Assembly (NCBI GenBank): GCA_025350465.1
Contig: JANXXU010000002.1
Span: 62,001 to 126,000, forward strand
From: Alphaproteobacteria bacterium
GTDB taxonomy: Bacteria; Pseudomonadota; Alphaproteobacteria; Micropepsales; Micropepsaceae
Length of the DNA: 64,000 bases
Direction of reading: 5' to 3'
Shown: in pieces, positions 11,168 to 13,907 of the stretch
Position numbering within the stretch: the first letter of the stretch is position 1
How the letters are laid out: each line of letters begins with the position of its first letter
Notes under the pieces: model-generated
Told to the model about the DNA's origin: nothing
Seen by the model: the letters and a program-made list of their open reading frames with translations, nothing else
Databases searched by the model: none
Translations under genes and position numbers: made by a program

Positions 11168-11175
11168 ATTCTATT
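11168..11175. repeat. Target-site duplication, left copy (ATTCTATT)
   Basis: ATTCTATT directly precedes the left inverted repeat and is repeated exactly after the right one (13900-13907). Eight bases is the duplication size known for the IS1595 family. Confidence 0.9.
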
Positions 11176-11200
11176 GGCGATATTATAGTTGGCAAACCCA
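11176..11200 (+). repeat. Left terminal inverted repeat of the IS1595-type transposon
   Basis: Twenty-five bases starting GGCGATATTATAGTTGGC. They match the reverse complement of 13875-13899 at 23 of 25 positions; the two differences (G/C at position 13, G/A at 17) make this end carry TTGGCA where the right end has TTGACA, so only the right end has a consensus -35 box. Confidence 0.9.
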
Positions 11201-11202
11201 CA

Positions 11203-11436
11203 TTAATGGGTGGGTGCGTTTGTCGCTTTTTCAATCGCAATAGCGATCCGCTCTAGCAGTTCACTTTGGCGCCGTTGCTCCGCCAGGCTGGCCTCCAGGT
11301 GAGCTGCCGCCTTCGCTTGGTAGTCCCTTGCGCGACGACTAATCCGGATGACCACGATCAAAAACGCAATGAGTAAGAGAACGGTGATGGCAAGGAAAGG
11401 CACGCCCCAGTCCAGAGGGCCAAATACCTCAGTCAT
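11203..11436 (-). CDS. Small single-span membrane protein with coiled coil (transposon passenger)
   Basis: A 77-residue protein. Residues 9-30 are a strongly hydrophobic segment (DWGVPFLAITVLLLIAFLIV) and residues 36-68 a charged helix with heptad-like spacing (RARDYQAKAAAHLEASLAEQ, then RRQSELLERIAIAIEK). It looks like an inner-membrane anchor with a cytoplasmic coiled coil. I do not recognise a family. The start overlaps the stop of the 67-residue gene (ATGA), so the two are translationally coupled. It ends 3 bases inside the left transposon end, showing that it belongs to the element. Confidence 0.65.
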   Translation of the reverse strand: MTEVFGPLDWGVPFLAITVLLLIAFLIVVIRISRRARDYQAKAAAHLEASLAEQRRQSELLERIAIAIEKATNAPTH

Positions 11437-11636
11437 GACTTGTTTCTCCGATCGCGCTTACCCGCGGGTGCGATAGAAGTCGCCTTCGCGATCTTACCGA
11501 GCTTCTCCTCGAACCGCGCCTTGTCGGTGTCGCAGCCAAGGCGACGGGCAACCGAAGCAAAGTCATCGGCTGCTATGACCCGTCGGGTCTTGGTTTTCGC
11601 AGATCGAGTTGCGGGTTTTTTGATTCGGGCTTGCAT
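11433..11636 (-). CDS. Small basic protein of unknown function (transposon passenger)
   Basis: A 67-residue, lysine/arginine-rich protein: a basic N-terminus (KKPATRSAKTKTRRV), a central DDFASVARRLGCDTDKARFE segment that could be a short helix-turn-helix-like fold, and a basic C-terminus (KRDRRNKS). No family recognised. Its ATG lies 64 bases inside the end of the PIN gene in another frame, a rather long overlap, and no later start codon is available. The ATGA coupling to the membrane protein gene argues that it is real. It might bind DNA or RNA (inference from charge). Confidence 0.5.
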   Translation of the reverse strand: MQARIKKPATRSAKTKTRRVIAADDFASVARRLGCDTDKARFEEKLGKIAKATSIAPAGKRDRRNKS

Positions 11637-12070
11637 ATGATGAGCTTATTGCCTCCAACGTTTCCAGAGTACCCGAGCAGCTTTTCGTCGAATGTATGAA
11701 ATTCGGTCGCGCGATAGAGGATCGCCGTTGCAAGGTGAATCGCATCGGGAGTCTTTAGCGATTTGCTTTGAGCGACGTAGTGATTGCGCAAATCATGCGC
11801 CAATTCAGCCACCCGAGTGTCCATGCTCATGCGGTTGGTGCGTTTAACAACGTCCTTGAAGATTTTGTCCATCCCAGCGGGGATTTTTGCGGCCAAAACT
11901 TCAACGGTCGTTAGGACCGAAGTCATAATCCTGGCATCACGTCGCTTGGCTCGCTGAATGATATCGCGCACGCCGTCCATTTCTCCGGTCGGACGAACTT
12001 CATCCTTGAGCCACGCGAGAAACAGGCAAGAGTCCCAGTAGAATAGTGGTGTTGAGCTAATCCCAGGCAT
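11573..12070 (-). CDS. PIN-domain ribonuclease, VapC-like toxin (transposon passenger)
   Basis: A 165-residue PIN-domain protein with the complete acidic set: Asp13 in YWDSCLF, Glu57 in TTVEVLA, Asp109 in TPDAIHLATA and Asp128 in TFDEKLLG. PIN proteins are Mg-dependent RNases, many being VapC toxins that cut tRNA or rRNA. Its start overlaps the end of the 271-residue gene by 14 bases, so they are coupled and probably form a toxin-antitoxin-like pair. No small AbrB, RHH or Phd antitoxin is present. The C-terminal 20 residues (after IICKP) overlap the 67-residue gene and may be poorly conserved. Confidence 0.82.
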   Translation of the reverse strand: MPGISSTPLFYWDSCLFLAWLKDEVRPTGEMDGVRDIIQRAKRRDARIMTSVLTTVEVLAAKIPAGMDKIFKDVVKRTNRMSMDTRVAELAHDLRNHYVAQSKSLKTPDAIHLATAILYRATEFHTFDEKLLGYSGNVGGNKLIICKPESKNPQLDLRKPRPDGS

Positions 12071-12872
12071 CGCGAAGCCCCCTGATGAAAGCCTCGCTGC
12101 TTAGCGATCCCGTGGCATCGGGCGCCCTACCACGTAAATCGTCCCAATCCGGCAGATCGTCATCCGAAGGGAAAACCTCTATGCTGGTGACGGCAATCTC
12201 ATGCGGAAAGGACGCTTGCGCGCGATACTTCAATGTTCCGAATACTTCAACGCGCCTGCCAACGGCTGCTACTGCATCGTCGAGCAATTTCGATGGGAAA
12301 TGGCAAGTGACACGCTTTGGTCCAATCTCCGGGTAAACGTGAAACGTGTTGACCCCTTGATGTATGTTGATCTGATCAAGGGCGCCCTCCAGGCCACCTT
12401 CGCACTCATCCTCTATGGCCAAGGCCACGTCCACCAACTGAACGACGCGCGGCGTTAGATCGAAAGCCGCTCCATTAAACACGAGCGTGGACGTTTTGAT
12501 CTGCCGACCGACCGGGGCGGCTAAGCCTCGTATGTCCTCTAACAACTCGGCATCAAACCCAGAAAGGCTGTCGCCGGCAATCAGCGCGTCCGTGACGTAC
12601 TTCAACCGCTCGACCACAAGCCGACCAGTATCGCGATACGGCGGAATCGATTTTGCCTGAAGCGCAACTCTAGTCGGATTCGTGTACGAGAGTTCGACAA
12701 TTTGGAACACACTGGCGGACTTGCCATCGTGGGATTCGCGGTCGAGTTTTTGCAGTGCTCCGCTCAGCTTTTGAAGCTGATTCATGAACGCCGTCAATCG
12801 AACGCGGCCCTCATCCTCGGGCAAACCCTGCAGAATAAGTTCAATCCGATCGTCTTGTGCCACTAGGATCAC
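12057..12872 (-). CDS. Uncharacterised 271-residue partner of the PIN protein (transposon passenger)
   Basis: No named domain recognised. The C-terminal half has a beta-rich pattern (HQGVNTFHVYPEIGPKRVTC, HFPSKLLDDAVAAVGRRVEV, FGTLKYRAQ) and ends DWDDLRGRAPDATGSLSSEA then FIRGLRDAWD. I recognise this pattern from uncharacterised proteins that recur just upstream of PIN-domain genes, so a role as an antitoxin or cofactor is likely; it is much larger than usual VapB antitoxins. The start is GTG at 12872, with no good ribosome site, 29 bases after the transposase stop. It may depend on transposase transcription, so toxin and mobility could be co-expressed (inference). Confidence 0.65.
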   Translation of the reverse strand: MILVAQDDRIELILQGLPEDEGRVRLTAFMNQLQKLSGALQKLDRESHDGKSASVFQIVELSYTNPTRVALQAKSIPPYRDTGRLVVERLKYVTDALIAGDSLSGFDAELLEDIRGLAAPVGRQIKTSTLVFNGAAFDLTPRVVQLVDVALAIEDECEGGLEGALDQINIHQGVNTFHVYPEIGPKRVTCHFPSKLLDDAVAAVGRRVEVFGTLKYRAQASFPHEIAVTSIEVFPSDDDLPDWDDLRGRAPDATGSLSSEAFIRGLRDAWD

Positions 12873-12901
12873 GACCAGCGAGGAGGTTCCAGAGAAGGAT
12901 T

Positions 12902-13837
12902 CTACACGGATGAGTCCCGGTACATAAGTCTCTTTCCGGCCGCACCGGACAACGCCTTTGCAGTGCGCTGTGTATCGTTAATCCCGAGCGCAATGCGCGC
13001 ATTGTATCTGAAGTCAAACTCGCTCAGATAGCGATGCAGGTGCCGCTCTGCGCAGTGCTGGTAGACGCCCTTCATGCCGCGCTTGAAGACGCTGAAGAAA
13101 CCTTCCGCCGTATTCGTGTAGGCCTCTCCGCGCACGTACTCATCTTCGGCATGGCGCACGACCTGATGGTCGGCAAACTCTTTGCCAATTGTCGTGTAAT
13201 AGGTCGCCTCGTCGGTCATCAGTCGCGCTTCGCGCGCCAAGTTCTTGCGAAGGATCGGCGCGAGCGTTGCGTTCTTTAGATCTTCGACGACCATACTGCG
13301 AGCTTGCTTCGTATCGCGATCAATCAGCGTCAGGACTTTCATCTTGTGCTGAAAGCCGCCGCGCCTTTTGGGAACGCCAGCTTTTCTGCCAATGAACGTT
13401 TCGTCGGCTTCTACGGCACCGCCGTTGCCGCCGAAGGGGACAGAGAGCTTCCCGTCACGCATAGCCTCCCGCAGGCGGTGACTCGCAAACCATGCCGTCT
13501 TCAAGGTGCATCCAAGCGTGCGATGCAGCTGGTTGCTGCTCACGCCCTTCTTGCTGGAGCACATCAGGAACGCGGCTTGAAACCATTGGTGCAGCTTCAA
13601 ATGGCTCGCTTCAAAAATGCTGCCCTTGCGAACCGTGAATTGGCCACGGCAGTGATAGCATTTCCACAAGCCAAGCCGAACGCGACCTTTCTTGTCCTTC
13701 ACGCCGTCAAGACGGTTTATCCGATCCACAGCTCCGCAATGAGGGCAGACGGGGCCGTTGGGCCACAGGATTGCCTCCAGCGCCGCGAAGGCCGCCGCCT
13801 CATCGTGGAAATAGGGGTCTTTCAAAACGTTGGTCAT
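12902..13837 (-). CDS. IS1595 family transposase (ISXO2-like DDE)
   Basis: A 311-residue transposase. The N-terminal zinc ribbon has VCPHCGAVDRIN (about 30-41) and KCYHCRGQFTVRKGS (about 59-73). The ISXO2-like catalytic core has EADETFIGRK (first Asp), LMTDEATYY (second Asp) and YTNTAEGFFSVFKRGMKG (the third position, NT-E, with FKRG). This combination defines IS1595. The frame is intact with all motifs, and the element ends match, so it may still be active. It is transcribed inward from a promoter whose -35 lies in the right inverted repeat. Confidence 0.95.
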   Translation of the reverse strand: MTNVLKDPYFHDEAAAFAALEAILWPNGPVCPHCGAVDRINRLDGVKDKKGRVRLGLWKCYHCRGQFTVRKGSIFEASHLKLHQWFQAAFLMCSSKKGVSSNQLHRTLGCTLKTAWFASHRLREAMRDGKLSVPFGGNGGAVEADETFIGRKAGVPKRRGGFQHKMKVLTLIDRDTKQARSMVVEDLKNATLAPILRKNLAREARLMTDEATYYTTIGKEFADHQVVRHAEDEYVRGEAYTNTAEGFFSVFKRGMKGVYQHCAERHLHRYLSEFDFRYNARIALGINDTQRTAKALSGAAGKRLMYRDSSV

Positions 13838-13857
13838 CGTCGCAACTCCCAGACTAG

Positions 13858-13886
13858 AATCTAGGAATTGTGCATGGGTTTGTCAA
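13858..13886 (-). promoter_or_regulatory. Transposase promoter embedded in the right inverted repeat
   Basis: On the minus strand TTGACA (complement of 13881-13886), a 17-base spacer, and TAGATT (complement of 13858-13863) form a sigma70-type promoter ending 20 bases before the transposase ATG. The -35 is inside the terminal repeat, so transposase binding to its own end could repress its transcription (inference). Confidence 0.65.
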
Positions 13887-13899
13887 GTATAATATCGCC
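13875..13899 (-). repeat. Right terminal inverted repeat of the IS1595-type transposon
   Basis: Twenty-five bases, TGGGTTTGTCAAGTATAATA onward, complementary to the left end at 23 of 25 positions. Followed directly by the target duplication ATTCTATT. Confidence 0.9.
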
Positions 13900-13907
13900 A
13901 TTCTATT
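13900..13907. repeat. Target-site duplication, right copy (ATTCTATT)
   Basis: Exact copy of 11168-11175. Removing the element and one copy joins TTGACT (11154-11159) to the sequence just ahead of the XRE regulator gene. Confidence 0.9.

Follow-up and report, generated by a model that had tools for sequence, protein, structure and literature searches.

X-PIN, a candidate toxin-antitoxin pair in the exchange slot of an IS1595-family transposon

Elements of the IS1595 family with passenger genes, the 'transporter IS', are known (Siguier, Gagnevin, Chandler 2009, as cited in PMC3129680), and Tn3-family transposons hold exchangeable toxin-antitoxin pairs for which a role in regulating transposition has been proposed (PMC7157771). 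PIN toxins with DUF433 and with COG2856 partners are among the toxin-antitoxin combinations listed in the tables of PMC2701414, and Panacea has been described as a hyperpromiscuous antitoxin domain (PMC10440598). Here we describe a complete IS1595-family transposon at positions 11176-13899 of a 64,000-nucleotide (nt) stretch of DNA from an alphaproteobacterium of the Micropepsaceae (contig JANXXU010000002.1; the whole stretch is called the window). Its cassette consists of two genes, one for a 271-amino acid (aa) protein, termed X, and one for a PIN-domain nuclease. On balance, we favour a reading in which X-PIN works as a type II-like toxin-antitoxin module whose antitoxin, unusually, has an OB fold, and in which it is carried by a transposon clade whose members exchange modules of this kind.

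The element at 11176-13899

The element is bounded by 25-bp terminal inverted repeats, one at the end distal to the transposase gene (11176-11200, plus strand; left in the window) and one at the transposase-proximal end (13875-13899, minus strand), which are identical at 23 of 25 positions (GGCGATATTATAGTTGGCAAACCCA vs GGCGATATTATACTTGACAAACCCA). An exact 8-bp target-site duplication, ATTCTATT, lies on both flanks (11168-11175 and 13900-13907, strand not applicable). Given one fixed pair of ends, repeats and duplication together would arise by chance with a probability of approximately 2e-16; the repeats begin with GGC, and comparable ends were found in 65 relatives. The transposase (12902-13837, minus strand, 311 aa) is intact, with matches to the IS1595 DDE domain (PF12762, 2e-35), the N-terminal zinc ribbon (PF12760, 2e-12) and the NCBIfam model transpos_IS1595 (NF033547, 1e-58). 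Residues D145, D209, E245 and K252 are present, a D-D-E-K motif compatible with the DDEK subgroups of the family, among whose named subgroups are ISNwi1, ISNha5 and ISSod11. An earlier sequence-only reading of the window, which had proposed a complete IS1595-type element with passengers, was thus borne out. The element is single-copy in its own genome and has a G+C content of 55.4%, compared to 61.8% in the window, and family scans of its open reading frames (ORFs) gave no match to a resolvase. When the insertion site was compared within the genus, only the left flanking gene was conserved (about 71-75%).

Four passenger ORFs are arranged head to tail on the minus strand: X (12057-12872), the PIN gene (11573-12070), a 67-aa small accessory gene termed SM (11433-11636) and the TM gene (11203-11436), which encodes 77 aa with a single predicted transmembrane segment plus a charged helix and stops 3 bp short of the left inverted repeat. 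The two small ORFs thus exist as the sequence-only reading described them. The reading frames overlap by 14 nt (X/PIN), 64 nt (PIN/SM) and 4 nt (SM/TM), and because of these overlaps and the common orientation the passenger genes probably form an operon.

The putative toxin matches PF01850 at 4e-9 and has all four acidic residues that had been claimed for it (D13, E57, D109 and D128). Across 17 diverged PIN sequences W12, D13, S51, E57, D109, D128 and P148 are shared, so that the four catalytic acids are invariant, and the PIN profile finds VapC 7by2 at an E value of 4e-5. For X, the putative antitoxin, no family match was found in Pfam, NCBIfam, PADLOC or PHROGs, and no solved structure was matched by sequence. 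Its structural model (mean pLDDT 84.5; 92.1 for the N-domain modelled alone) comprises a predicted N-terminal ferredoxin-like alpha/beta domain (residues 1-152), an OB fold (residues 154-237) and a low-confidence tail (residues 238-271) in which D..RG and L.xLR motifs are conserved. Structure comparison of the OB part gave PriB, SSB and the anticodon-binding domain of class II tRNA synthetases as best matches, with Z scores of 8.5-9.9 over 65-85 residues, which in a model speaks for the fold and not for a ligand. Structure matches of the N-domain were to ferredoxin-like arrangements only, at Z < 6 and with no named relative. Partners of its type measure 246-300 aa. Given its lack of family matches and its alpha/beta plus OB-fold model, X does not fit the small DNA-binding antitoxins of the VapBC type (RHH, AbrB, Phd/YefM).

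Occurrence and decay of the X-PIN pair

Related elements were collected by fetching 80 loci via the transposase alone, followed by automatic end finding, which yielded a set of 66 complete elements including the window element and the one at L020 (L numbers denote loci). X-PIN is present in 14 of the 66, with X preceding PIN in all 14, and in 12 of the 80 loci X and PIN lie directly downstream of the transposase. X and PIN alone are the cassette, a real and recurrent pair, in agreement with the toxin-antitoxin-like pairing suggested earlier. The same passenger block between matching repeats was found in other genomes (L005, L020, L035, L052 and others). At L005 (the same locus as L079) a second complete X-PIN element, bounded by perfect repeats and a AAATATTT duplication, carries a transposase 61% identical to that of the window element; behind it come genes for an X of 250 aa, for PIN and for an SM-like protein.

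The pair also occurs outside these elements, including at chromosomal loci that lack a recognisable element. In 100 related genomes, three remote homologues of the 271-aa protein were found, and an X profile matched in 12 of 385 genomes of the class. X was absent from all 10 same-genus genomes and all same-family genomes searched, and a search of plasmids found none; passenger genes conserved at this locus in relatives devoid of the transposon ends were not seen. X-PIN pairs with no transposase adjoining within the stretch examined occur at L006, L007 and L012-L016. Among wider stretches, the X loci L108, L114, L117, L119 and L120 have transposase genes or remnants together with end-like sites, the stand-alone pair at L107 has one end-like site, and no IS1595 ends of the non-autonomous kind were found around the stand-alone pairs at L109, L110, L111, L113, L115 and L116. 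The L108 locus is an X-PIN-SM element from outside the class of the window, in which both ends are present and the transposase gene is split in two.

X-PIN was also found in viruses. In the temperate Pseudomonas phage vB_PaeS_AV001 (PQ349086, L123:4959-6318) the pair adjoins a repressor gene, the record annotating a hypothetical protein and a 'repressor protein' at this place. An identical X occurs in four prophage or viral contigs (L128-L131), and further pairs lie inside metagenomic viral contigs, one of which carries the transposase and SM too. Decay of the pair was one-sided: with X intact, PIN is frameshifted at L109 and L115 and missing at L119, and the reverse (X broken, PIN intact) was not seen among the loci inspected.

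Core genes and exchange slot of the related elements

The 66 elements measure 1914-3816 bp (median 2611), with 24-nt repeats and duplications matching at 7-8 of 8 positions. Their fixed core consists of the transposase, SM and the ends. SM, with the signature F..xAR.L..D.d...F...L.KIAK in the window and QxxKFKEAARELexDDDEaxFxEKLxKxAK across elements, occurs in 59 of the 66 irrespective of cargo and always on the transposase strand. Searched alone in 289 genomes it gave 16 matches, 12 of them with a same-strand upstream IS1595 transposase or fragment, and nearly all plasmid matches to SM were in records that contain the transposase as well. The TM gene, in turn, is a variable gene of the right end (the SM side of the elements), any such ORF being found in 6 of 46 elements. 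The sequence-only reading had treated the five genes as one system with SM as its 'small basic protein'; this we rejected, as SM is a transposon backbone gene separate from the X-PIN pair, and SM and TM track the transposon.

The core varies in places. Pseudosulfitobacter plasmids (NZ_CP086996) carry a transposase-SM element whose slot is empty, and in six Sphingomonad-type elements (L064, L073, L076, L082, L089 and L092) another small ORF with the motif EQSxRFxxEVQxLIDAGELxPTEAD replaces SM right after the transposase, with the cargo behind it. In the X-PIN element at L079 (7173-7613) SM is fused to an additional domain of ~100 aa, possibly a winged helix, and this fusion suggests that SM may act on DNA. 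In the genome of the window itself, decayed transposase fragments with an SM-like gene directly after them (L178:3447-3838 and L176:3410-4230, contigs C17 and C42) are remnants of related elements. In many elements a small opposite-strand protein lies between SM and the right end, as at L058 (7192-7509) and L074 (7580-7903) and in the right-end regions of L023, L030, L037, L062, L070 and L071; one of these proteins is weakly Cas2-like (PF09827, E 0.008). It is possible that the stretch between SM and the right end is a second variable site.

Cargo mostly sits between the transposase and SM, in a slot with a median length of 1139 nt; in the window element this slot spans 11637-12901 (minus strand) and contains X-PIN, where relatives hold unrelated modules. 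Element pairs with 83-91% identical transposase DNA have unrelated slot contents, and similarity resumes at SM and the right end. In the pair L054/L062, for example, the transposase is 90.4% identical over 1007 bp, SM 88.8% and the right end 86.8%, with no similarity in between. These pairs show slot replacement in related elements. Cargo type also lacked phylogenetic signal on the transposase tree, which required 41 cargo changes for 59 labelled rows, compared to an average of 40.6 (range 35-45) for shuffled labels; the inner branches of this tree are poorly resolved, while the close pairs display the swap directly.

Cargo families were assigned via a direct Pfam match or cluster membership. 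Besides the 14 X-PIN elements, the slot holds DUF3800 (13 elements, often on the opposite strand), SocA/Panacea (6), DUF433-HTH with PIN_10 (2, the DUF433 match being scanned in one and cluster-shared in the other), PIN with a different, possibly OB-like partner (1), HTH-IrrE with DUF4411 (1), RelA/SpoT (1), AlbA/HATPase (2, one with FRG too), DUF1828 (2) and a D12 methylase (1). Recognised toxin-antitoxin or defence-type families are found in at least 43 of the 66 elements, and several cargo families are matched by PADLOC candidates. In a control of 64 flanking genes, only three families recur (histidine kinase, response regulator and aminotransferase); as the longest flanking ORF was taken for each element, this control is biased to long genes. 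A further unnamed pair of 244 and 175 aa occupies the slot in 4-5 elements (L037:5984-7242; also L023, L024 and L095). A sequence profile comparison suggests that its 244-aa protein may be distantly related to X (hhalign E 5e-4, probability 31%). The 175-aa protein has four invariant acids with PIN-like spacing, although homology to PIN was not shown, the corresponding probability being 2%. The remaining cargoes, about 18 of 66, are unrecognised.

Interpretation and comparison with known systems

X-PIN has the general type II layout of two co-directional overlapping genes with X upstream. Its gene order, overlap, one-sided decay and company in the slot suggest that X is the antidote to a PIN toxin. 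PIN would then be a toxic RNase. X, whose translation would precede that of PIN and be coupled to it through the 14-nt overlap, would bind and silence PIN, with an OB fold in place of the usual DNA-binding domain. Were X to fail or be lost, by deletion of the element or phage shut-off, RNA cleavage by unbound PIN would bring growth to a stop, and this arrest may keep the element in the lineage, limit phages, or both. A stabilising role of X-PIN for the transposon is accordingly put forward as a hypothesis. The contents of the slot are probably swapped via homologous recombination between co-resident elements at two anchors, the transposase gene and SM with the right end. We give even chances to the broader proposal that this small IS1595 clade is a dedicated toxin-antitoxin and defence vehicle, with a core of transposase and SM, a slot refilled too often for phylogenetic signal, and X-PIN as a new family with an OB-fold antitoxin.

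Several points weigh against this interpretation. Both PIN toxicity and its neutralisation by X are predictions from sequence, and the exchange mechanism is deduced from its end points. The one-sided decay amounts to three loci, partly in draft assemblies. That the cargoes are mostly toxin-antitoxin or defence genes hangs on family labels, including DUF3800, with little functional knowledge behind them, as about 18 of 66 cargoes are unrecognised. Moreover, X falls outside the known families of antitoxins and DNA-binding proteins, and the modelled OB fold could bind RNA rather than silence PIN.

In an alternative that we regard as rather unlikely, X-PIN is a two-part effector: the OB fold of X would recognise an RNA (tRNA, rRNA or a phage transcript) and bring PIN there, forming a defence module without a separate antidote. 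The best OB matches (PriB, SSB and the tRNA-synthetase domain), the position of X-PIN next to the lysogeny region in Pseudomonas phages and the defence-like families among the cargoes are consistent with it. However, RNA binding is not shown by an OB match, the X-first overlapping order and the one-sided loss of PIN suit an antitoxin better, and classical toxin-antitoxin pairs occupy the slot too. It is less probable still that X-PIN regulates transposition, with the antitoxin-like protein controlling transposase expression and the toxin giving transient stabilisation during invasion. Cargo does lie on the same strand immediately 3' of the transposase in many elements, and the Tn3 family, with PIN toxins among its pairs, offers a precedent (PMC7157771), but near-identical elements hold unrelated and often opposite-strand cargo (DUF3800), so that the slot has no common regulatory part. 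Elements with transposase and SM and no cargo also exist, and SM would be a better candidate if anything regulates transposition. That the passengers are random hitch-hikers between the ends, without selection for toxin-antitoxin content, would fit the unrecognised genes and is very improbable in view of the predominance of recognised families over the flanking control and the recurrence of X-PIN with invariant catalytic residues.

The transposon group would explain how small two-gene toxin-antitoxin and defence modules can reach new places in the chromosome singly, each between traceable ends. PIN toxins gain a candidate antitoxin type in the OB fold, and SM is a conserved protein of the transposon with a directly testable role. 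A search for cargo flanked by an IS1595 transposase and SM could also uncover further toxin-antitoxin and defence families, as about one slot in four is filled by proteins outside all known families.

Compared to the described IS1595 'transporter IS', as far as these are presented in the citing literature, the elements are alike in their zinc ribbon and DDE transposase, 8-bp duplications and passengers between the transposase and one end. They differ in the conserved SM gene, the exchange slot and the X-PIN pair, which that literature does not describe; likewise, the literature searched yielded no SM core gene, no slot for this group of IS1595 elements and no PIN partner with an OB fold, the original 2009 description and ISfinder lying outside both comparisons. 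With VapBC and other PIN modules X-PIN has in common a PIN RNase toxin (putative here) with four conserved acids and an overlapping upstream partner gene, whereas it differs in the length and modelled OB fold of that partner; those tabulated in PMC2701414 include RHH, AbrB, PHD, DUF433, UPF0175 and COG2856.

The toxin-antitoxin transposons of the Tn3 family are likewise unit transposons whose modules, including PIN toxins, occupy a constant position and are exchanged among elements, but they belong to another transposase family, their exchange point is the res site, and their antitoxins are of known families (RHH, Phd, AbrB, HTH, ParD and MNT), unlike X (PMC7157771). Here it is SM that bounds the slot on its far side, with no resolvase match. 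Tn7-like elements are multi-gene and site-targeted. They are likewise loaded with defence and toxin-antitoxin genes (PMC8649781), whereas the group of the window element is confined to 1.9-3.8 kb, with a core of two genes and only one slot, a short one.

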